Shown: one piece after another, positions 1,069-43,234 of the stretch | Layout of the letters: every line of letters starts with the position of its first letter | Position numbering within the stretch: the stretch's first letter is position 1 | DNA from: a virus | DNA: 43,911 nt | IMG/VR virus record: IMGVR_UViG_3300029985_000005 | Coordinates: 1 to 43,911 of that record | Strand: one strand, 5' to 3' | Notes under the pieces: generated by a model | The model's database searches: none | What the model was told of the DNA's origin: nothing | Seen by the model: only the letters and a program-made list of their open reading frames with translations | Program-made: the position numbers and the translations under genes

Positions 1069-3381
1069 TTAGCTGCCGTACTGCGCATTCTCGTAATCAC
1101 GGACAGCTTCGCTCGGCGATATGCCCTCTTCCACTTTCTCTCTGTGAATGTAAATTCGGGGTTGCACCGTTTCGTTTTTTGGTATTCTGCTAGCGCGCCC
1201 GTTTGTGAGCGCGGGGTGCAGAACATACCCAATGTCATTTAAAAGTTTCTGTATCCCCTGCGCATGTATATATATGCGTGCTTCTTTCATTAGCGCTAAG
1301 AGATGAGTAGAACTGATGTAACCACCGCGAAAACCTACGCGATTACTTTCGATAGCTTCTATTAGTTCGTCATGACAGGGGGTGCGAACTGATAGATTGA
1401 CAGCTTCGACAGTTGAAGATGTAAAGGGTGCGACGAGACTTTCAACCGCAGGATTGTACTTGTCCGGTATTTCGAGATTTTTAAGATAATGAGTTGTGTA
1501 TTTAAATCCCTTGATTCTAAGCCACATTACTAATTCTCTAAAATATTTCTCATCGAGTCCTGAGCGTATAAGCTGCTCACGAGACTGTTGATGGCTGAAA
1601 AACATAGCGAATCGTCTTGTTTCTTCTGTTTTTCTAATGCCGTCTTTGTGATTAGTTGACAAAATAAAATTAGCGCATACATCCCGTGTGATTTTTTCAC
1701 CCCCCTTCGGCTCTATCTCTAATCTATCACTATCAATCATCGGCTTAACGGCTTCGATAATGTCGGCTTTACTCGAAGGAATGTATACATCATCGATAAT
1801 GACTAGTGTTTTTGCGTATAACCAACCGTTGAATCGTGCTGCAATCTCTTTCGATTGCGCAAAATGCACATAACGCTCGCCGATAGCGTACGCGACGATA
1901 CGAGAGAGCAATGATTTTCCATTGCCTTCAACGCCTTGCAGGACGGGACACCAACGAAATTTAATGCCCTGGTGTTGCACAAGAGCTGCGAAGTAATAGA
2001 GTAATTTTTTTTGATCTTCTTCGTTAGGATAAAGACTTGACAAATGGTTTAAAAACGGGATCACATCTCCCGCTTCGCATTCAATTGTAGGCGGATACCA
2101 AATATTAGCTTGCGAAATTCCGTTTTTATTTTCGATCTCCATGGGTTTTAAAGCAGGCTTAAAGCAGGTTGTATCGGCTTTTGGAAAGTTAAGCAATTGT
2201 GACTCAGTAAAACACTCAAATGCATTACGCGTAGTACGTGAATTTGCAGCATCCATGACGAACGTTTTAGATCCGAAAATTGCTTTGAATCGATCCGCTG
2301 TGAGCAATTGTCCGCCCGGCACTAATATCTTGTGTTCATCCTTGACGTATATGCAATTTTTAAAATGATTTATCTGTTGCTCTGCGCTTAAAAACGCGCT
2401 GTCAGTTCGATATAAAGCTTTTTGTGTACAATCCGTTTCTGATGTGTTACTATTTTCTGTGTGAATTTCCGTTTGATTTAAGTTATTTATTTGCGTCGTG
2501 TAAAACGTAGTTTGTCTCTTTGTTGCGTTCGTGATCGTTATAGAGAGATAATCTACGTTGCCGCGTTTTGAAGTCCATTTTTCTCTTGCTAATTTGGATT
2601 TATACATCAGCTGTCGTATTCTTTGTTCGTCATTCCCTGTCCAAAACGCTAAGTGCTGCGCGAGTGCGGCATCGGCTGACGAATGATTGTATGCGTGCTC
2701 TAATTTCTTGGGCGGATAAGCACGTGATAACGATTCGATATTTCCTTCCCACAGATCTCTAAAACACACTGAATTCGTAAATACTGACTTAGCAGATTTT
2801 GAATTTAATGCACGCTGAATTAATTCTTCATCGCTTTCGCTATTTCCATTGCTGACAATACCTGCGGATTCCCAAACAGTTGAATTATCGTTTTTAAAAA
2901 ATTCGGAAATAACACTGTTTAAAATCACAGTTTTATTTTGGCTTGCATCTCCGCGCGCTTCAAATCCCGTCAATGCTGCAAAACGCCGAGTGTGATATAG
3001 CTCTATATTTAAATCTGCATTTTTACATGCATGCGGATCAATGTGATCATACGTTCCAAAAATGTGAATACCGTTTTTAGATCTCGATACTTCCACTGCT
3101 GCGCCGTCGAACAATGTTATAAGTTTTTCAGCTATCGAATTCATCTTTCCGTTGTCGATGCAATGATCGATATCTAAGAAAAAAAACGGATCGTTATCTG
3201 TGAACACGAATCCTATTTCAAGCGAAGTATGAATTTGCGTTAACATTTCTGCGTGTCGATATTGAAGCCAGTTTTTTGAATCGTGTGGATCGCCAGGTTT
3301 TAACGAAATTGGATCGAGAGGAATTTTATTTCTGTGTAAAATAAATTGAGCATAACTCTCCATCGCTGAAAATACAGCCAT
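1069..3381 (-). CDS. primase-polymerase / SF3-type helicase (NrS-1-like)
   Basis: 770 residues; replication protein expected to prime and unwind DNA. The N-terminal archaeo-eukaryotic primase-like domain shows FFFLDID (Asp70, Asp72) and SKNGIHIFG (about 101-109). Residues about 233-270 (SSADAALAQHLAFW... KLAREKW) resemble the helix-bundle domain of NrS-1-type polymerases. The C-terminal DUF5906/D5-like ATPase has Walker A GVEGNGKS (483-490), Walker B LVIIDD (526-531) and the sensor-like FILSTNH (about 572-578). The start has AAGGAAG upstream. It is the last gene of the leftward helicase operon. The phage also encodes a family A polymerase, so priming rather than bulk synthesis is the likely role here. 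Confidence 0.88.
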   Translation of the reverse strand: MAVFSAMESYAQFILHRNKIPLDPISLKPGDPHDSKNWLQYRHAEMLTQIHTSLEIGFVFTDNDPFFFLDIDHCIDNGKMNSIAEKLITLFDGAAVEVSRSKNGIHIFGTYDHIDPHACKNADLNIELYHTRRFAALTGFEARGDASQNKTVILNSVISEFFKNDNSTVWESAGIVSNGNSESDEELIQRALNSKSAKSVFTNSVCFRDLWEGNIESLSRAYPPKKLEHAYNHSSADAALAQHLAFWTGNDEQRIRQLMYKSKLAREKWTSKRGNVDYLSITITNATKRQTTFYTTQINNLNQTEIHTENSNTSETDCTQKALYRTDSAFLSAEQQINHFKNCIYVKDEHKILVPGGQLLTADRFKAIFGSKTFVMDAANSRTTRNAFECFTESQLLNFPKADTTCFKPALKPMEIENKNGISQANIWYPPTIECEAGDVIPFLNHLSSLYPNEEDQKKLLYYFAALVQHQGIKFRWCPVLQGVEGNGKSLLSRIVAYAIGERYVHFAQSKEIAARFNGWLYAKTLVIIDDVYIPSSKADIIEAVKPMIDSDRLEIEPKGGEKITRDVCANFILSTNHKDGIRKTEETRRFAMFFSHQQSREQLIRSGLDEKYFRELVMWLRIKGFKYTTHYLKNLEIPDKYNPAVESLVAPFTSSTVEAVNLSVRTPCHDELIEAIESNRVGFRGGYISSTHLLALMKEARIYIHAQGIQKLLNDIGYVLHPALTNGRASRIPKNETVQPRIYIHREKVEEGISPSEAVRDYENAQYGS

Positions 3382-10404: not shown

Positions 10405-10865
10405 TCGAAATTAAAATTACAGATCCACAGTTGATAGAAAAAACAGCTTTAAATGGGTTGATTGATTATTTAAAAACTTTTCAAAGTACAGATTTAACCC
10501 CAGAAACACTTGAACATACGTCTAATATGCCTAAAGTTATTGAAGAGAAAATAAAACCTAAACGGTCTAAATCGAAAACAAAAGAACCTACTTTCGTTGC
10601 TGTTGAACCTGCTGTTTTTGCACGTCCAGAAGGCAATTTAATAATACACGAGTCTTTTACTTTTGAAGATGTGATGACGACTGTAACGCTTGGTATAAAA
10701 GAAGATAAACTAAAATCACTTGAAGTATCTGAGATATTAAAAATGTACGGTTTAAAATCGCTGCAAGATTTACGTGTTCAAAACGATTTAATAACCCCCG
10801 TGATTACAGATCTCAAACGAATTATAGACACTCACATATTCACGACTAAGGACTCGTTAAGATGA
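10401..10865 (+). CDS. hypothetical protein upstream of the DUF2800 nuclease
   Basis: 154 residues with three parts: an N-terminal helical segment, a basic low-complexity linker near 52-62 (KIKPKRSKSKTK), and a C-terminal helical domain (FTFEDVMTTVTLG...SEILKMYGLKSLQDLR) of a kind seen near phage recombination genes. Both ends overlap neighbours by ATGA, placing it firmly in the DUF2800/ssDNA-binding cluster. Accessory role in recombination is inference from context. Confidence 0.68.
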   Translation: MIEIKITDPQLIEKTALNGLIDYLKTFQSTDLTPETLEHTSNMPKVIEEKIKPKRSKSKTKEPTFVAVEPAVFARPEGNLIIHESFTFEDVMTTVTLGIKEDKLKSLEVSEILKMYGLKSLQDLRVQNDLITPVITDLKRIIDTHIFTTKDSLR

Positions 10866-11962
10866 CACGGCATTCGGAAATTCCACCCTCTTCGGTACAC
10901 AGGCGAATGCTGTGCCCGGGGTCTAGAGAATTAGAGTCAACAGTTATAGAAGAATTTTCGAACTATGCGCAAGAGGGAACGCTTGCGCATACTGTTGCTG
11001 CATCTCTTCTAGAAGATGAAATTTTACCAGAAAATGCAACAACAGAAATGGTAGAAAACGCGAAAGAATATGTGAAAATTGTACGAGAGAATCACGATGA
11101 AAAAACCTGTAGTCCGATTTTCGTCGAAAATTCAGTAAGCATATGCTTACGTTCTTCTGTTTCTGACTCTGAAATAGTTAATTTCGGAACACCGGATGCC
11201 TTTTATTTCAGTGGTAAGAGAAATATTTTGAGAGTTTTCGATTACAAGTACGGGTACAAAACTGTCGAAGCAAAAATGAATTGGCAAATGATTTACTACG
11301 CGATAGGTATCTTGCAAAGTCATAGAGCTATTTGCTCGCAGGCTATAGAGTTAACTATCGTTCAGCCGAGAATAAATCATGTGAGTACGTGGTCGATTTC
11401 AAGAGAAGAACTAAATTCTTATGAAAATTTACTTTATATTTCTGAATTAACTTCTTTAAAAGAAAATGCACTTTTAAAAGTTAATCACTTGTGTTTCACA
11501 TGCAAAGCTCGATCCATCTGCCCTGCTTTGCGTAAAGCCACTTTAAATACTTTGCATGAAGCAGAGCTACCGATTCGAAACGATTTGAGTAGTCAATCTC
11601 TATCTATCGAGATACAACTGTTAGAGCACATGTTAGATCTTGCAAAATGTCGATTATCAGCGCTCGAACAAGAAGCGTTAAGCAGACTTAATGCCGGGAA
11701 TATAGTACCGAATTACACGATTGAACATACTGCCAGTCGCACGATGTGGAAATATAATTCTGATTTAACAGAGTTAAAAAACTATGCTGAATTATTTGAT
11801 TGCCAAATAGAAAAACCGATTGAATTTATCACACCACTTCAAGCGATTAAAAAAGGATTGCCGGAAGAATTAGTTGATAAATATTCAGAAAGAAAAAGAG
11901 GAGAACCGAAATTAAAATACATTAAAAATACCGCTGATATTTTTAAAAATACTATTGACTAA
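10862..11962 (+). CDS. DUF2800 PD-(D/E)XK nuclease, Cas4/RecB-like with Fe-S cysteines
   Basis: 366 residues. The N-terminal HSEIPPSSVHRRMLCPGS contains the first cluster Cys; TPDAFYF and RVFDYKYG supply the Asp and D-x-K of the PD-(D/E)XK core; MNWQMIYYAIGIL is the family's QxxxY-like helix; CFTCKARSIC near residue 210-220 gives the three C-terminal cysteines. Cas4-like enzymes with this layout hold a 4Fe-4S cluster and act as exonucleases. It overlaps the previous gene and is followed by the ssDNA-binding protein gene, consistent with a recombination/replication unit. Confidence 0.88.
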   Translation: MTRHSEIPPSSVHRRMLCPGSRELESTVIEEFSNYAQEGTLAHTVAASLLEDEILPENATTEMVENAKEYVKIVRENHDEKTCSPIFVENSVSICLRSSVSDSEIVNFGTPDAFYFSGKRNILRVFDYKYGYKTVEAKMNWQMIYYAIGILQSHRAICSQAIELTIVQPRINHVSTWSISREELNSYENLLYISELTSLKENALLKVNHLCFTCKARSICPALRKATLNTLHEAELPIRNDLSSQSLSIEIQLLEHMLDLAKCRLSALEQEALSRLNAGNIVPNYTIEHTASRTMWKYNSDLTELKNYAELFDCQIEKPIEFITPLQAIKKGLPEELVDKYSERKRGEPKLKYIKNTADIFKNTID

Positions 11963-14330: not shown

Positions 14331-14518
14331 AAAATGAATTAATTAAAAAAAATAAACATAAACGAAGTATGATATCTTTAGACGATGTAGCTGTTGCTCA
14401 GCTCAATGATCTTTCTGTTTCTATGCGCTTGACAAAAAGTTTAATCATACGAAAAGCAATTGACGAATTATATTATAGAGAAAAAAATAATGTCAAAAAA
14501 AGTTTACATAGATTTTGA
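14327..14518 (+). CDS. ribbon-helix-helix DNA-binding protein, GTG start
   Basis: 63 residues. After a basic N-terminus, RSMISLDDVAVAQLNDLSVS then TKSLIIRKAIDELYY fits the strand-helix-helix of Arc/CopG-type regulators. GTG start has GAGGTGG close upstream and overlaps the previous stop. Its 3' end overlaps the polymerase start by 29 bases, so it may regulate expression of this cluster; target unknown. Confidence 0.72.
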   Translation: MKNELIKKNKHKRSMISLDDVAVAQLNDLSVSMRLTKSLIIRKAIDELYYREKNNVKKSLHRF

Positions 14519-16607
14519 AACGTATTCAGAAGCCGGTTTCGAATGGGATGAAAATAAGCAATCCTGGAACTCACTTCCTAACTCTTCTAAAAAAGGTCTT
14601 CCTGCAATTGGAATTGCGCCCTACGCTACACATCCTTCAACTGAAATACTGTGCATGGCTTACGCGTTTGACGATGAGCCGAATGTAAACGTGTGGCTGC
14701 CGGGCGACCCTTTCCCCGATAGGTTACAAGAACACGTAGATAATTATGGTCAAATTGAAGCGTGGAATGTGGCTTTTGAAAGATGGATTTGGACATATGT
14801 AGGATGTTGTAGATACGGATTTCCTCTTAACGATTGTATCCAATTTGTATGCACACAATCTAGAGCAAGAGCATTTTGTTTACCGCCCTCTCTCGCTGAA
14901 GCCGGCGAAGTTTTACAGATACAAAATCAAAAAGACAAAGATGGTTGGCGTTTAATTAATAAATTCAGCATGCCGCGAAATCCAACAATTCGTGATAAAC
15001 GAAAACGTATTACGTTTCAAGATGACCCTGTTGATGCGATGCGAATGATAGATTACTGTATACGTGACGTTGTAGCAGAGCGTGAAATTGATAAACAAAT
15101 CCCCCAATTATCTACATTTGAATTTAAATTTTGGAAAATAGATCAAGCTATAAATGAGCGCGGTGTGTCACTTGACTTAAAATCCATTGATAATTTTATA
15201 AATATCGCTGAATCAGCCTATAAAAAATATAACGCCCGTTTATCAGAAATCACGGGTGGTGAAGTAAATTCCGCGACTGAAATATTTAAATTAAAAACAT
15301 GGTTAGCAAAGCGTGGATTATTAGTTGAATCGCTAGATGCAGCGCATTTAGCTGAATTATTAACGCGTCAACTCCCCCTCGACATTTACGAAGCGCTTTC
15401 TATACGCGATAAAATTGGTTCTTCTGCGGTTAAAAAACTTTACGCGATGAAAAATAAACATTTCAAAGGACGCGCTAATGAGCTATTCGTCTATCACGCG
15501 GCACGCACGGGTCGTGCAGCAGGTGCAGGGATACAACCGCAGAATTTACCAAATCACGGTTTAACAGTTTCTATCTGTAAAAACTGTGAAAAAACAACGA
15601 GTCTAAAACAGTTTTGCCCGCGTTGTTTTTCAACGGAATTAGTACGAGATCAAGAGTGGAATTCGAAAGCCACGGAAGACGTAATAGAGTTAACATCATT
15701 AAATGATTTAGAATTTTGCTACGGAGATGCGATCGGTGCGATTTCCGGATGTTTACGCGGAATGTTTGTTTCACGGGAGGGTTATGATTTAATTTGCAGC
15801 GATTATTCAGCCATTGAAGCCGTAGTGTTAGCTGCAATATCTGAAGAAACGTGGCGATTAAGCGTATTTAAAACACACGGGTTTATTTACGAAATGTCAG
15901 CGTCTAAGATAACTGCAATACCTTTAGAAGAATATTTAGAGTATAAATCCAAAAATAAAAAACATCATCCTGATCGTAAAATCGGAAAAGTTGCGGAATT
16001 AGCGAGCGGATTTGGCGGGAGCATAGGCGCGTGGAAACGATTTAAAGCAGACGAATTTTTAACAGATGAGCAGATAATGCAAGCGGTATCTGCGTGGCGC
16101 AAAGCAAGTCCCGGAATCGTGAAACTGTGGTACGGTCTTGAAAAAGCCGCTAAGGATTCTATTTTAAATCCACAAACTGTTTATTCATACGGCGCTATAA
16201 AGTATTTTACGTCAAACGATATACTGCATTGTATTCTACCCTCTTCACGTTTCATCACTTATCATCGACCACGCATAATAGACAATGCGATCACTTTTGA
16301 AGGATATAATTCTAATGAAAATAACGGCGCCCGGGGATGGATGCGCATAGATACTTACGGCGGTAAATTAACTGAAAACTGTGTTCAGGCAATAGCGCGT
16401 GACATTCTCGCAAATGCGATCGTTAATTTAGAAAACGTAGGATATGAAGTAGTTATGCATATTCACGACGAAATCGTAGCCGAAATACCTGAAAAGTGGG
16501 GGTCAATTCAAGAGTTTGAAGAAATAATGTCAACATTGCCTATTTGGGCACACGGTTGGCCATTAAAAGCATCCGGCGGTTGGCGCGGTAAACGTTACAC
16601 TAAGTAG
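14490..16607 (+). CDS. family A DNA polymerase with 3'-5' exonuclease and inserted zinc ribbon
   Basis: 705 residues. Exo I is YIDFETYS (Asp8, Glu10). Polymerase motif A is LICSDYSAIEA (Asp438), motif B RKIGKVAELASGFGG (about 496-510), motif C MHIHDEIV (Asp660). Between the thumb and motif A, CKNC (363-366) and CPRC (376-379) form a zinc ribbon not present in T7-type enzymes. The ATG at 14490 starts a clean exonuclease domain; an upstream TTG at 14460 adds ten residues without a ribosome-binding site. It is the last gene of the rightward operon and converges with the late operon. Confidence 0.93.
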   Translation: MSKKVYIDFETYSEAGFEWDENKQSWNSLPNSSKKGLPAIGIAPYATHPSTEILCMAYAFDDEPNVNVWLPGDPFPDRLQEHVDNYGQIEAWNVAFERWIWTYVGCCRYGFPLNDCIQFVCTQSRARAFCLPPSLAEAGEVLQIQNQKDKDGWRLINKFSMPRNPTIRDKRKRITFQDDPVDAMRMIDYCIRDVVAEREIDKQIPQLSTFEFKFWKIDQAINERGVSLDLKSIDNFINIAESAYKKYNARLSEITGGEVNSATEIFKLKTWLAKRGLLVESLDAAHLAELLTRQLPLDIYEALSIRDKIGSSAVKKLYAMKNKHFKGRANELFVYHAARTGRAAGAGIQPQNLPNHGLTVSICKNCEKTTSLKQFCPRCFSTELVRDQEWNSKATEDVIELTSLNDLEFCYGDAIGAISGCLRGMFVSREGYDLICSDYSAIEAVVLAAISEETWRLSVFKTHGFIYEMSASKITAIPLEEYLEYKSKNKKHHPDRKIGKVAELASGFGGSIGAWKRFKADEFLTDEQIMQAVSAWRKASPGIVKLWYGLEKAAKDSILNPQTVYSYGAIKYFTSNDILHCILPSSRFITYHRPRIIDNAITFEGYNSNENNGARGWMRIDTYGGKLTENCVQAIARDILANAIVNLENVGYEVVMHIHDEIVAEIPEKWGSIQEFEEIMSTLPIWAHGWPLKASGGWRGKRYTK

Positions 16608-33926: not shown

Positions 33927-35768
33927 TTACTCCGTAAAATCTAAAACTGGCCGTAGAGTGCACCTACAATTCTTGCTTATTATTTCTGTAGATGCTACGT
34001 TGTACCATCCGTTATTACTTTCAAGAGTATAAACATGTCCCGAAAATTCACTGATGATTTTCTTATCTACGCGAAAAAATGTTTGAATGGGGGAATGACA
34101 ATACGCACTTTCTGCGATAACACGCGTACAAGCCCCAATCATCTCGCAAGAGCACTTAAGCACCGATTTAATTATGTCTGCCCCGCAACCCAAAAGCAAC
34201 GAGTGATTAATTCCTTCTCCCAGGATATTTGCGATAGTTATAGTCGCGGGACAAGCTGCCAAAAGTTGGCGAAAGATTGGGATACTAGCAGACAAGTTAT
34301 TTACCGTATTTTGAGCGAAAACGGTATTCTTCTCAGAAATGCAAGTAAAGCAAATATCATTCGTATGTCGAAGCTCACTGCTGATCAACGGATCGCTTTG
34401 TCTAAATCTGCACGTGCAGCTAGACTCGAAAATCTCGGGATCAAAGCTAAAACCGCTCGGATATCGTACGACATTGGTCAAGGCGAAAACCAGATTTTCG
34501 AGCTGTTGAATACCAGTGGTTTCGAACCTGTTCGACAAACTACCTGCGGGGACTATTCTATCGACATTGTCTTCGGGAATGTCGCCGTGGAAGTTAAATT
34601 TAGCCGAAAGTTCAACACTTCTTACCCCTTCGATAGAATCAAATATCTCATTAAAAGTGGGTATATTGTTTGTTTCTTTGTTTTCAATTCTATTGATGTT
34701 TTCAAATTTGCTGCTAACGAGATAATCACCTTCCTTAATTTCATCCGCTCTCAACCACCCTCGCTGCGTGAGTATTGGGTGATTAATTGTAGAAGTGAAA
34801 CTCCTGATGCCGCCTATATAGAAAGTAATAATTTTTCCGACATGCTTATACCGCCACACATTAGCACAACCGTTAGCAAGCGATACTTGAGTTGATCCGG
34901 TAAAACAATTTATCGGATGCCCCGGAATTCCACGATCTGCTTCCGGCACACCTAATTTTGCTTGCTCTTCTTCTAAATTTGCAAAACTAAAAATCTCGCC
35001 ATTTATTTTCTTGTGCGATTCGCGCGGGAACTGTCCACCCCCGCTGTGTATCCATTCAAATTTTTTAAAACCCGCGTTTATCATTCGGATTTTATTCACA
35101 GTATTATACGCTTTTCGTGTTTGATCAAGCGCCATTAGTTTTGCACGATTTAAACTTATCTCGCTATACTTGCTAAGATCCTCTGTGAGTGACTTGACGC
35201 CTTCGCCGGTCGTAATCGATCTCATTACCGATCCAGTGATATCATTGAAATATTTTTGCGGAAGTGATTCTATTAGTGCTACGTTCTCAGCAATTCCCGC
35301 TTTTACAATATCTTCCATGCCTTCCGGCACTGCGCCCGTATTTATAGATAAGCCGCCGCTCAATTCTTTTAAACTCATGTGCAAATTAGATTTACTTAAC
35401 TTAACAGTATTCGATAGCATCGATTGAGCTAAAGGTTTAGCTTTCAATGAGAATAGTTTTGAGAATTTTTCAGTTAAATAATTCGTTAGTATCTTTGCCC
35501 GACTTGCTAAACTCGCATCTTGTGCCATTTTCTTTTGTTTCATAAAAAATTCTTTTGATAAATCACTTTTAAACAGATTAGTAATCTCATGTTTTGTTTC
35601 AAGAACCATCTGACGAACTAATTTTAAAATAGCCGCTTTATACTTCATTTGCAGTGAAGCATTATACTGAAGCGTATGCCCGCGAAGAACAACTGACCTA
35701 TTCGCGACCCACTTTGCTTTCGTTTTCGTTAGTTTCGTTTTCTGCTTCTGTCGTTTCGATGATGTCAT
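33927..35768 (-). CDS. MuF-like minor head protein interrupted by an intein
   Basis: 613-residue precursor. Exteins: residues 1-287 and 601-613 (300 residues after splicing). MuF features: [43 protein letters not shown], then [19 protein letters not shown]. The intein (288-600) splits this last motif. The MuF protein is injected or stabilises the portal region. The start at 35768 overlaps the portal gene by 71 bases with only a weak ribosome-binding site; the next Met is residue 41 (35648), so the true start is uncertain. Confidence 0.88.
33969..34907 (-). mobile_element. intein in MuF, 313 residues, with antisense nuclease gene
   Basis: Intein residues 288-600 of the precursor. Block [14 protein letters not shown]. 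Block [15 protein letters not shown] with T-x-x-H, then [10 protein letters not shown]. Block [19 protein letters not shown]-terminal Asn then +1 Cys (ISKN|CRC). The penultimate residue is Lys instead of the usual His. Between blocks B and F there are about 215 residues with no LAGLIDADG, HNH or GIY-YIG motif. Insertion is at the most conserved codons of MuF, typical of homing. The complementary strand encodes the candidate homing endonuclease. Confidence 0.88.
34035..34895 (+). CDS. candidate homing endonuclease, antisense inside the intein
   Basis: 286 residues, fully contained in the intein on the opposite strand. HTH-like segments: [21 protein letters not shown] (about 22-42) and [20 protein letters not shown] (68-87). 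The nuclease core is [19 protein letters not shown] then [17 protein letters not shown], giving Glu151, Asp177 and Glu186-x-Lys188 of a PD-(D/E)XK (EDxHD/Vsr-like) fold. The start codon is the complement of the His codon in block F (GHVY) and the stop is the complement of the Ser codon in block A. Codons are exactly opposed. AAGAG lies 7 bases before ATG; no clear promoter. It is the only rightward gene in the late region. Confidence 0.8.
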   Translation: MSRKFTDDFLIYAKKCLNGGMTIRTFCDNTRTSPNHLARALKHRFNYVCPATQKQRVINSFSQDICDSYSRGTSCQKLAKDWDTSRQVIYRILSENGILLRNASKANIIRMSKLTADQRIALSKSARAARLENLGIKAKTARISYDIGQGENQIFELLNTSGFEPVRQTTCGDYSIDIVFGNVAVEVKFSRKFNTSYPFDRIKYLIKSGYIVCFFVFNSIDVFKFAANEIITFLNFIRSQPPSLREYWVINCRSETPDAAYIESNNFSDMLIPPHISTTVSKRYLS

Positions 35769-39504: not shown

Positions 39505-39873
39505 TTAAACCTCTGTAATAAACATCGATACTAGATCAACTGGGACGAGGGCATGCATTTCTTCCACGGTTTTACAATTCGAAAAATCTATATCTTTAAA
39601 AGCTCTTAATTTTTTACGATCTTGTAATAACTTATTTTTTAAATCTGAATCACCATCTTCTTCAGCCATTTCAATTTCAGTTGAAATTTTAGATATTTTC
39701 TCATCGATAGCCGAGTTTAATTTATTCTTAAACAAAGTCTGACATTCATCAATTTTATGATAAGCGTGGCTAATCCCGTCGAAATGCACATGGCCGTGAT
39801 ACTCAGGATGTTTTTTATTTAAATCCCAGTATGACTGTAAAAATTCATCTGGTTCTTTCTGTATTATTATCAT
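39505..39873 (-). CDS. hypothetical protein downstream of the tail fibre
   Basis: 122 residues. N-terminus contains PEYHGHVHFDGISHAYHK, a His-rich stretch, followed by a charged helix (KISKISTEIEMAEEDGDSDLKNKLLQDRKKL). ATGA overlap with the fibre gene suggests coupled expression, as for fibre chaperones, but no known chaperone motif is seen. Confidence 0.65.
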   Translation of the reverse strand: MIIIQKEPDEFLQSYWDLNKKHPEYHGHVHFDGISHAYHKIDECQTLFKNKLNSAIDEKISKISTEIEMAEEDGDSDLKNKLLQDRKKLRAFKDIDFSNCKTVEEMHALVPVDLVSMFITEV

Positions 39874-42800
39874 AATCCTAACATCCCGTAGATTGTAAAT
39901 ACCGCGGTGTTAATATTTCCGCTATTAAAAAATACTTTAAAACTATTTATGCCTGCGGTTGCCTGCGTGCAATTCACTAAATATAGAACGCCGCCTTGGG
40001 TGATCGACCCCGAGATTTGAACAGTGCCGTAATTTAAATTTCTAATAAACAAATGTCCCGCAGCGGCTCCCGCATTAGCAAATCCTGCACTCAATATGAT
40101 AGAGGATGTTGAGCTTGAATTGCTCCACGTAGTAGAGCCGCCTCCCGTATTATTACTCGTGACACCGCCTGTATAGCCGCTAGTTAAAAAAGAGCTACCA
40201 AGATTATTAGAAAGTAGGATACCTAACGCATTACCCCCGGAAACAGGCAGTAAATTTTGAAATAAAATTAAAATGGTATTAAATTGAGTAATGGGCAACG
40301 CAGTTGACTGCGTAAAGGTGATTGAAGCTACTGTACCACCCGTTACTGACACCGTTTCTAAAAAAGATAAACCCGCAGTCCCAAGCCATGCAGATCCGTT
40401 ATAAAAATAGGGCAAACCCCATAAGCTATTAAAAACTTCTAATCCGGTAGGGGGACTGCTTATATTAGTATAGGGGGCACTATTTAACGGCATTAAAAAC
40501 CCAGCATTGTTACCGCTTGAAAATAGCGAAAGTACCGCACTGTTCACAAAGGATGTGGAACCAATCGCAACGACATTGCCTGTGCCTCCTTCGCCCTGCA
40601 AAATCAACGGACGACCAACAACGCCATTTTCTACCGCTTGAATCCATGCGTAATTCATCGCAGACGCAGAATAATTGACACCCATAGCTAAGCGCGGAAT
40701 ACCAGGAGCACTTGTCGTAGTACCGCTTAGAAGAATAGACCCGATTTCCCCGCTTGGTACAGATGACGCATCAAACACATGGAATTTAGCCGAAGGAGCA
40801 CTTAGACCGACACCAAATTTACCTGATACCGCGCCTCCGTTGGCCGATGTAACAGTTCCGCTTGCAAAACCGACTTGAAAATTTCCAGGTACAGAAAGAC
40901 TTGTCGCAGGTGAGGGATCACCTATACCCACGTTGCCGCTTGTATTTAAAGTTATTCCTGTTAAAAAACTTATAGCGCTTCCAGCCGTTGTAGATGAATA
41001 ATCTATCTCAAAAAGATTAGACGTTTTTGCAAATCTAAAATTACCATTCGAAGAATTGCTTATGATACTCGTGCCGTTATAATAACAATCCCAAAACATC
41101 TCGAGATTGTCCCGGCCAAAAACTTCAAATATTAGATACGCATTTGAACCTGTTCCGCCTACTGAAAATCCAGTGCTATTAATATTTCCATTCACATCTA
41201 AGAAAGAATTCGCATCAGGTAAACCCGTGTTAATACCTAAAACACCCGGGATATAAACGCCTGCTGTATATCCTATTGTGATTTTTTTAGGAGTTCCTAA
41301 ATCTGTCGAAATGTAATCTATGATCCCCGAATTCGGTTGTATCCTTATCATTCCGTTGGTGCTACTGCTTCCGGTTTGAGTAGAATCTACAATCGCTAAT
41401 TGACGATTACCGGTAGCGTTGTGCGCCATCATTAACGCAATACCATCTGTCGAAGAATTCGCATCCATCGAATTGCCGGACAATACTATATTTGCGTAAC
41501 GTGCGGTTTGTACGCCGACGTTTAAAGAATAATTCGGCGTGGGTTTAGCAGTCGTTGCGATGTCGACACCGCCTTGTTGAAAATAAGCGGTATAACGAGT
41601 GGTACCCGCCGTTTGAATCGAGCAATATAGACCGTACGAAGTGGTTATACTTCCAGATCCGGCGAGTGATCCGGAATCTATCCAATGACCGTACGCTGTT
41701 GTATATGTTTGTCCGCTCGGAGGCGAAAGACGAATAGCAGTGTATTGCCCCGCAACATACGTAACGGAATTGCAATTAAAAATAGGTTCTACATCAAGTC
41801 CGAGTGCGATGGTTCCTGCCGCGCTACTAATCGTCGAAATTACTTGTAATCCAATGTAGGTAAGTATTGAACTACCACCGACTAACAGGCTATTCGTTAT
41901 ATAAACATTCGCAGGGAGACTTACCGTAGCAACGCCCGAAGTCGTCGAAACCGATACTTGATTTGCAGTACCTGAAACTGCCGTTATGCCGCCAATCGTA
42001 CCAGTATTTGAAATCGTAAATGCGCCCGTTGAAGGGTTGAACGATACACCTATTCCCGTCCCCGCGCCTATTGACCCTTTGATTAGATTTGTCGATGAAG
42101 TTTGACCGACGAGTATCTGCCCGTCTGTGTATGTGCTAAATCCCGTTCCGCCGATAGACGAGACGAGGGGTATCGCAGTCCACGTCATCGGCGCGGCTGA
42201 TCCACCACCTGAAGCTAGTAAATATCCGGCTACCCCCGCCGTTACCGGTAAATTAAAATTATAAGTGCCTGCTGTCGCTTGCGGAAGTATCGATATCAAA
42301 CCGCTTGACGAACCGCCTAATTCTAATCCTGCGAACTGGGGCGACGAAGTAGTCGCAATATCTTGTATCGTGTTAATCGCCGCTGCTGTAAATTTTAGAT
42401 TTGTTGTGTTGATCACAGCAGATAAAACATTACCTGTGATTCCGATTCCGTTCCCGGCCATGAAATAATTTGCGCGTGTGAATAGGATTGGGGAAGTTCC
42501 GACAACTATCGTACCGGTTGTCGTCTGATACCACATCGTGCCTGCATTGAGTGTACCCGACTCTATGATCGTGTATGTTCCTGCAGCCATTTCTGCGCTG
42601 GTGTTATAGTCTATCGCGCGTGTCCATACTTCTTGTATTCCCGTCCCGCCGAGGGTAGACACTGTATAGATGCCGTTTTGCAGCTGATTCGCACCTGCTT
42701 GATCTTTCATCAGTACTCGATATCCGAGTACCGTAGTAAAACCATCGATAGTCTGAGAACCTGTCGCTGTAAAAGTGAATGTCGCGCCAACACCGCTCAC

Positions 42801-43055
42801 ACCGTTGACGTATATTCCCGTCAGTGCTCCGGTCGTTGCAAGCGTGCAAGGCGCTTTCGGGCTTAACCCTGATATAACTGCGTTGAGTTGTTGAAATGTA
42901 ACCGCTTGTAACGCTAGCGTTGCGTCTGCGTTGAGTATCAAATTTCCTGTCATCGTGCCGCCGGTCAGTGGCAGATAACCCGGCAGAATTGGCGAACCGC
43001 CGTACGGCACGTTAAAAACTGCTAACCATTTTATAAATTCGCTGGCTGAGATCAT
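39870..43055 (-). CDS. large tail fibre/spike protein
   Basis: 1061 residues from the ATG at 43055, which overlaps the preceding stop (ATGA); a GTG at 43067 would add four. YLPLTGGTMTGNLILN is the fibre N-terminal repeat; VLMKDQAGANQLQNGIYTV...WTRAIDYNTSAEMAAGTYTIIESGT is a common fibre domain; then GGTGFSTYTDGQILVG and several beta repeats such as LNTSGNVGIGDPSPATSLSVPGNF. The C-terminus is Gly/Ser/Asn-rich beta. No chaperone peptidase motif is evident. Host receptor binding is the likely role. Confidence 0.88.
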   Translation of the reverse strand: MISASEFIKWLAVFNVPYGGSPILPGYLPLTGGTMTGNLILNADATLALQAVTFQQLNAVISGLSPKAPCTLATTGALTGIYVNGVSGVGATFTFTATGSQTIDGFTTVLGYRVLMKDQAGANQLQNGIYTVSTLGGTGIQEVWTRAIDYNTSAEMAAGTYTIIESGTLNAGTMWYQTTTGTIVVGTSPILFTRANYFMAGNGIGITGNVLSAVINTTNLKFTAAAINTIQDIATTSSPQFAGLELGGSSSGLISILPQATAGTYNFNLPVTAGVAGYLLASGGGSAAPMTWTAIPLVSSIGGTGFSTYTDGQILVGQTSSTNLIKGSIGAGTGIGVSFNPSTGAFTISNTGTIGGITAVSGTANQVSVSTTSGVATVSLPANVYITNSLLVGGSSILTYIGLQVISTISSAAGTIALGLDVEPIFNCNSVTYVAGQYTAIRLSPPSGQTYTTAYGHWIDSGSLAGSGSITTSYGLYCSIQTAGTTRYTAYFQQGGVDIATTAKPTPNYSLNVGVQTARYANIVLSGNSMDANSSTDGIALMMAHNATGNRQLAIVDSTQTGSSSTNGMIRIQPNSGIIDYISTDLGTPKKITIGYTAGVYIPGVLGINTGLPDANSFLDVNGNINSTGFSVGGTGSNAYLIFEVFGRDNLEMFWDCYYNGTSIISNSSNGNFRFAKTSNLFEIDYSSTTAGSAISFLTGITLNTSGNVGIGDPSPATSLSVPGNFQVGFASGTVTSANGGAVSGKFGVGLSAPSAKFHVFDASSVPSGEIGSILLSGTTTSAPGIPRLAMGVNYSASAMNYAWIQAVENGVVGRPLILQGEGGTGNVVAIGSTSFVNSAVLSLFSSGNNAGFLMPLNSAPYTNISSPPTGLEVFNSLWGLPYFYNGSAWLGTAGLSFLETVSVTGGTVASITFTQSTALPITQFNTILILFQNLLPVSGGNALGILLSNNLGSSFLTSGYTGGVTSNNTGGGSTTWSNSSSTSSIILSAGFANAGAAAGHLFIRNLNYGTVQISGSITQGGVLYLVNCTQATAGINSFKVFFNSGNINTAVFTIYGMLGL

Positions 43056-43234
43056 TGTTTCACCCACCCAGAAATAACGGTTATGTTCGTTCCGTTGTTC
43101 GTAAAGGTCTGTTGATAGGTATTCCCGACATACACGACTTGAATGTATGAGACGAAAGAACCTGAATAAGTTATATTTTGCGTAAGTGCATCCAGTGGCA
43201 GCATGACGCCGTCACTTGCCAAAACCGTCAACAT
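43052..43234 (-). CDS. small protein between TerS and tail fibre
   Basis: 60 residues. AAGGAG lies 9 bases before the ATG, the start overlaps the TerS gene and the stop overlaps the fibre start (ATGA), which together make it a real gene despite its size. Beta-rich sequence (ITYSGSFVSYIQVVYVGNTYQQTFTNN) resembles small fibre-associated proteins. No family recognised. Confidence 0.7.
   Translation of the reverse strand: MLTVLASDGVMLPLDALTQNITYSGSFVSYIQVVYVGNTYQQTFTNNGTNITVISGWVKQ

Follow-up and report, generated by a model that had tools for sequence, protein, structure and literature searches.

Vsr-like free-standing genes are reportedly found between the halves of split inteins, where, in the account attributed to Dassa et al. 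in 2009, they occupy the gap and do not overlap the halves. For inteins, the stated arrangement is that the endonuclease is carried as an in-frame fusion, and homing enzymes of the EDxHD type are known (PMC3943268). An antisense homing endonuclease, I-DsqI, is encoded in a nuclear rDNA group I intron and has been shown to be active (PMC9548176). A MuF intein has been noted in Salmonella phage UPWr_S and E. coli phage vKMB36, in passages that do not mention an antisense nuclease (PMC8425127, PMC11162368), and the record of phage Snoke also notes a MuF intein. A search of the open-licence literature found no report of an intein with a nuclease on the opposite strand. Here, we analysed a viral stretch of 43,911 nucleotides (IMG/VR record IMGVR_UViG_3300029985_000005, positions 1 to 43,911; hereafter the window), in which a MuF-like head gene is interrupted by an intein and the opposite strand of that intein carries a second long open reading frame with the features of a homing endonuclease gene.

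Results

Layout of the locus

The head gene and its intein run on the minus strand, and the plus-strand ORF is nested wholly within the intein, each of its codons being the reverse complement of a minus-strand codon (Table 1). The junctions in MuF read ...HPIN/CFTGS ... ISKN/CRC (slashes mark the intein boundaries), the insertion preceding the +1 Cys. Pfam searches of the window returned HTH_7 (5.6e-5) on the plus strand, and Phage_Mu_F and Intein_splicing on the minus strand. An earlier note on this DNA had placed the intein at 33969-34907 and a 286-residue antisense protein at 34035-34895, and these coordinates proved exact, with C1 at 34907 and the last Asn at 33969. It had also described the antisense protein as beginning opposite block F and ending opposite block A, and the ATG (34035-34037) is indeed complementary to the His codon of block F, residue 291 of the intein, with the stop codon (34893-34895) facing block A.

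Table 1. Features of the intein-bearing MuF locus on both strands of the window.
Feature	Position	Strand	Evidence
MuF-like minor head protein gene, intein-interrupted	33927-35768	-	Pfam Phage_Mu_F 1.5e-9; PHROG head protein 4.8e-64
MuF exteins	N-extein 34908-35768; C-extein 33930-33968	-	
Intein, 313 aa, 939 bp	33969-34907	-	Pfam Intein_splicing 3.6e-4; profile of relatives; Foldseek
Splicing block A, CFTGSTQV, starts with C1	34884-34907	-	C1 invariant in 41 inteins
Splicing block B, TINHPIL	34770-34790	-	T40 and H43 invariant (41 inteins)
Splicing block F, FSGHVYTLE	34020-34046	-	H291 conserved in >=90%; CAT in 65/65
Splicing block G, IISKN, ends with Asn313	33969-33983	-	N313 invariant in 41 inteins
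+1 Cys after the intein	33966-33968	-	Kept in nearly all loci
Antisense gene, probable homing endonuclease, 286 aa	34035-34895	+	Homologues; AF2 pLDDT 89.4; core dN/dS 0.36
Shine-Dalgarno-like AAGAG, 7 nt 5' of ATG	34023-34027	+	GAG here in 52/62 auto-detected starts
First HTH domain, residues 7-45	34053-34169	+	AF2 helices H7-18, H23-30, H34-45
Second HTH domain, resolvase-like, residues 62-95	34218-34319	+	HTH_7 in 29/54 relatives, best 1.3e-12; AF2 helices
Nuclease domain, residues 148-239	34476-34751	+	Foldseek and profile matches to 3R3P, 3HRL; invariant columns

Elsewhere in the window, the replication part encodes NrS-1-like primase-polymerase domains (1069-3381), a DUF2800 PD-(D/E)XK protein (10862-11962) and a family A DNA polymerase (14460-16607). 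An ORF of 1065 aa at 39870-43067 had no Pfam match at E 0.001.

Conservation of the two-strand arrangement

The two-strand design is conserved in more than 100 phages. A tblastn search with the plus-strand protein matched 90 GenBank phage records, and a scan of IMG/VR with the nuclease yielded 135 related stretches; ten of the former and 80 of the latter were fetched, and 91 loci, comprising IMG/VR stretches, GenBank phages and the window, were examined. In the fetched GenBank records from Vibrio, Aggregatibacter-type, Klebsiella, Salmonella, Gordonia, Edwardsiella and Pantoea phages the match lay antisense to a MuF or head gene, the one exception being from Acinetobacter. The possibility that homologues would never be intact in related inteins, which the earlier note had raised against its own reading, does not describe these loci: the nuclease was nested in a long minus-strand MuF/intein ORF in 90 of 91, always codon-aligned, and was full length in all nested loci but one. 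When 60 of the minus-strand ORFs were scanned with Pfam, Phage_Mu_F was found in 57 and Intein_splicing in 54. Inteins that were found from the intein side and missed by the nuclease search also carried the antisense nuclease (7 of 7 inspected), as did a Chloroflexota plasmid record and a Helicobacter prophage, and a profile search of genome contigs with a narrow alignment gave three loci. Bearers include many laboratory phages, their hosts being Salmonella, E. coli, Klebsiella, Vibrio, Pseudomonas and Gordonia; family sequences are mostly less than 30% identical to the window protein, and the GC content of the loci ranges from 35 to 68%.

Several individual records merit comment. In the near-identical pair L016/L017, the aligned sequences differ only in that the nuclease frame of L017 has a nonsense codon, and the intein is still open, as would be expected of a decaying homing gene or might result from a sequencing error. 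The antisense ORF of Salmonella phage PK1 (L111:895-1704) is recorded as a 269-aa hypothetical protein without comment, and in vB_StyS-sam (L110) only a fragment of it was called. A 1,104-aa protease of Mycobacterium phage Sejanus (L107) showed no clear intein motif on a quick check and was left out of the counts.

Fold and family of the antisense protein

AlphaFold2 modelling on 54 relatives (pLDDT 89.4) gave two HTH domains joined by a linker to a nuclease domain. The best solved match in Foldseek was 3R3P, the catalytic domain of I-Bth0305I (E = 7.1e-4), followed by 3HRL (2.0e-3), and profile searches agreed (3HRL 9e-6, 3R3P 3e-4). Pfam on the single nuclease sequence returned only weak HTH and UPF0102 matches, and the family assignment needed a profile built from relatives, individual members of which match HTH_7, MTES_1575, DUF559 and occasionally NUMOD1. 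Across the 54 relatives M1, R86, E151, Q168, Y174, D177 and E186 are invariant; the nuclease-domain set is thus E, Q, Y, D, E, given as alignment columns rather than as positions superposed on those of EDxHD. The earlier note had proposed HTH regions and a PD-(D/E)XK core, of which the HTH regions, Glu151, Asp177 and Glu186 hold, but not Lys188 of its E-x-K motif, which is not conserved among the relatives. The fold and profile matches and the retained acidic residues place the protein with the EDxHD/DUF559/Vsr-like fold, and the active site appears to be EDxHD/Vsr/DUF559-like and not a classical E-x-K. Structure prediction for the two strands separately gave HINT parts on the minus strand and, on the plus strand, HTH domains with a homing-endonuclease fold.

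Burkholderia phage BcepSaruman encodes a protein annotated as a GIY-YIG homing endonuclease (L109:940-1911) that shares the HTH part of the nuclease family; such sharing suggests that DNA-binding modules may be swapped between classes of homing enzyme.

Insertion sites and mobility

The intein is present or absent at a fixed site in close relatives. The joined exteins of Salmonella phage LSPA1 matched 405 phage records, and those of Gordonia phage Fosterous 95 Gordonia records, >=80% of their length being covered at a single location; among the matches listed these were single uninterrupted pieces, up to 88.5% (LSPA1) and 97.5% (Fosterous) identical. Phage Geodirt has such an empty site, between flanks 97.5% identical to those of Fosterous. 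Between Gordonia phages Fosterous (L005) and Keitabear (L094) the exteins are 93-97% identical, and the inteins, inserted at the same codon, are 50% identical, which is the background level. E. coli phage KMB36 (L098, 1805-3775), one of the seven cases reached from the intein side, carries an intein with an antisense nuclease at another MuF position, TSTT/C ... KN/CRARD, so that inteins of this family occupy two or more sites.

These observations also bear on a different view, that the antisense protein is real but that its main role is regulation through DNA binding, or that it is a nuclease that has been domesticated or has lost its activity, with mobility arising from ordinary recombination. 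The two HTH domains, the E-x-K Lys that relatives lack and the ability of free-standing relatives to persist beside their site (as in Acinetobacter phage IME285) are compatible with this view, but we consider it unlikely given the five invariant nuclease-domain residues in 54 sequences, a nearest fold that is the catalytic domain of a homing endonuclease, I-Bth0305I, and a pattern of precise presence/absence and one-site intein replacement that is what homing gives. The plus-strand protein is probably a homing endonuclease, and the presence/absence and replacement of inteins point to homing-like mobility.

The intein on the minus strand

The intein is an in-frame insertion with C1, the block B T-x-x-H, block F, a terminal Asn and a +1 C/S/T residue. 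Blocks A, B, F and G, which the earlier note had recognised, are all present with key residues conserved across 41 inteins (C1, the T and H of block B, the terminal Asn and, in the loci, the +1 Cys). A profile of these 41 relatives matches PDB inteins (1.3e-9), and Foldseek matched the intein model to the Mtu RecA intein with a probability of 1.0. Pfam found no in-frame endonuclease inside the intein on the minus strand, in keeping with the earlier description of an endonuclease slot holding no nuclease family on that strand; the nuclease is on the plus strand. The model is confident in the HINT parts only, and residues 122-270 mostly have pLDDT <50, a pattern to be expected of a middle part that acts as an open linker and whose sequence is shaped by the opposite strand. 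A conserved intein motif, FHGD (34581-34592 in the window, and in relatives), is the complement of the nuclease motif VAVE and may be a shadow of the nuclease, not a splicing motif.

The minus-strand HINT domain might instead be non-splicing (bacterial-intein-like or dead), with the nuclease gene merely disrupting or extending MuF. Many members have Ser or Lys in place of the penultimate His, and the Intein_splicing score in the window is weak (3.6e-4). Nevertheless, C1, the block B T-x-N-H, the block F His, the terminal Asn and the +1 Cys are kept, and orthologues run uninterrupted across the joined exteins, which marks the intein as an exact insertion. An insert of 313 residues that stayed in place would also probably not be tolerated in a head gene, and together these points make this alternative very improbable. 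Under the favoured reading of an active splicing domain, splicing efficiency may vary within the family, because some inteins end in SN or KN instead of HN.

Expression signals of the antisense gene

Both the start codon and the ribosome site of the nuclease are written into block F (GHVYNLQ). The start was ATG in 60 of 62 auto-detected loci, with a GAG/GGAG ribosome site ahead of it in most; most relatives have GGAGG or GAGG, and the window has a weaker AAG form. The block-F His codon was CAT in 65/65 cases (30.9 expected, sd 3.5, z 9.7) and the Leu codon CTC in 52/64 (10.5 expected, sd 2.7, z 15), z-scores that overstate independence as the loci are related. In Keitabear, block F has an inserted Trp and the antisense ATG is still opposite the His codon.

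In about a third of the loci a consensus sigma-70 promoter, TTGACA-18-TATAAT, overlies block G and the junction, its -10 hexamer starting 34 nt before the ATG. At least 11 of 12 matches to it were found in 20/61 loci and in 0/170 control windows; when the intein was recoded synonymously, the expectation was 2.0 loci (sd 1.3). A search of the window itself found no recognisable promoter (best 8/12 matches). A second promoter-like class has TATAAT 51 nt 5' of the ATG (e.g. L004, L009, L074, L077), formed there by the block G Ile-Ile codons (ATT ATA). Separate timing of nuclease expression is plausible, because many relatives have a promoter of their own for the nuclease.

Selection on the two strands

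In the codon-aligned phase, a stop codon on the minus strand appears on the plus strand as TTA, CTA or TCA, and vice versa. With Leu and Ser codon frequencies taken from this phage, we calculated the chance of encountering none of these in 286 codons as 8e-11 (plus side) and 1e-10 (minus side). In the same antisense phase, the MuF exteins of relatives have a stop every ~31-35 codons (511/15,851; 138/4,766). A count of 0 antisense stops in 17,115 codons was discarded as circular, the overlap itself being defined by the open frame, and the argument from openness rests on ORF lengths and extein stop rates only.

Purifying selection acts on both frames when compared to the extein control, and an overlapping-gene rate comparison of the kind the earlier note had proposed showed where: the nuclease strand is constrained in the middle of the segment, the intein strand at its splicing blocks. 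In the core, dN/dS was 0.36 (0.31-0.42) on the plus strand and 0.70 (0.62-0.80) on the minus strand (13 pairs); opposite blocks A and B the values were 0.48 and 0.39, respectively, and in the MuF extein control 0.80 and 0.15, as for one-strand coding. The core also had a third-position excess on the plus strand (ratio 1.38, 1.27-1.50), the opposite of the extein control, and plus-strand identity exceeded minus-strand identity throughout 34080 to about 34680, a relation that was reversed at 34728-34862.

Acinetobacter phages IME285 (L007:455-1348) and BUCT629 (L102:3001-3894) have a free-standing nuclease, convergent with an intein-less MuF whose 3' end it overlaps by 7 bp, near the intein position of relatives; this copy possibly represents an ancestral or a descendant state. 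Stops break up its antisense strand, and even so its matches to the nested ORFs reach 9e-34. Because this copy matches although its antisense strand is closed, mirror-image similarity is ruled out. That the plus frame is a chance or shadow ORF, with the intein strand the sole gene and the antisense similarity its mirror image, is hardly credible and already refuted unless all tests share an unrecognised bias, since conserved intein motifs do cast shadows in this phase (FHGD against VAVE, NHPI against YWVI) but the free-standing homologue, the reversed codon-position and identity pattern in the core, the synonymous codon choices that keep the ATG, ribosome site and promoter, and a confident AF2 model matching a homing endonuclease all reject it. 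As judged from the sequences, the plus frame is a real second gene and not a chance frame, a conclusion to which its start codon, its ribosome site, the promoter and selection at the amino-acid level all lead.

Discussion

Overall, our reading, to which we assign a probability of roughly 0.87, is that these loci form a widespread two-strand class in which a splicing domain is encoded by one strand of a ~900-bp segment and the homing endonuclease belonging to it by the opposite strand, while blocks F and G also provide the antisense gene with its promoter, ribosome site and start codon. At about the same confidence, these inteins have their homing endonuclease as a separate antisense gene, the segment being one mobile element of two genes.

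In the proposed mechanism, the intein would be translated inside MuF, its HINT blocks would fold, and it would excise itself and join the exteins, so that the insertion would spare MuF. The plus strand would supply an HTH and EDxHD/DUF559-like homing endonuclease, started from the block-F ATG and ribosome site and, in many relatives, transcribed from the block-G sigma-70 promoter, presumably allowing independent expression. This nuclease would cut intein-less MuF alleles of co-infecting phages at the conserved N/C-R-C site, and recombinational repair would copy the whole segment into the cut allele. Labour would be split along the segment, the middle being constrained mainly as nuclease (the intein needing an open linker there) and the ends mainly as splicing domain.

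If this is correct, the endonuclease of an intein can be encoded by a gene of its own on the antisense strand, with almost every base common to the two, an arrangement undescribed in the literature searched. It would separate splicing from homing and explain the mobility of an apparently nuclease-less intein, it would provide a long natural case (~290 codons) of two functional proteins from complementary codons, and it would mean that splicing blocks can host a promoter, a ribosome site and a start codon. Gene callers discard antisense genes that lie entirely within another gene, which is probably why the antisense nuclease was missed, and other inteins are therefore worth re-reading on the opposite strand.

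The MuF inteins of UPWr_S, vKMB36 and Snoke belong to the same family and lie in the same gene as the one described here. With I-Bth0305I and the EDxHD (Vsr-like) and DUF559/MTES_1575 proteins the antisense protein shares its nuclease fold and profile, 3R3P and 3HRL being the nearest solved structures, but 3R3P is labelled a mobile intron protein. I-DsqI is likewise an antisense homing endonuclease within a self-splicing element; unlike the present case, that element is an RNA intron in rDNA, its nuclease is of the His-Cys type and lies inside a non-coding ribozyme, without two overlapping protein frames. (Maxi-)inteins of the PI-SceI type, with LAGLIDADG or HNH nucleases, likewise combine a HINT splicing domain with a homing nuclease encoded inside it and are inserted at a conserved position in the host gene, but there the nuclease is an in-frame fusion (PMC3943268), whereas here it would be a separate protein whose gene lies antisense to nearly the entire intein.
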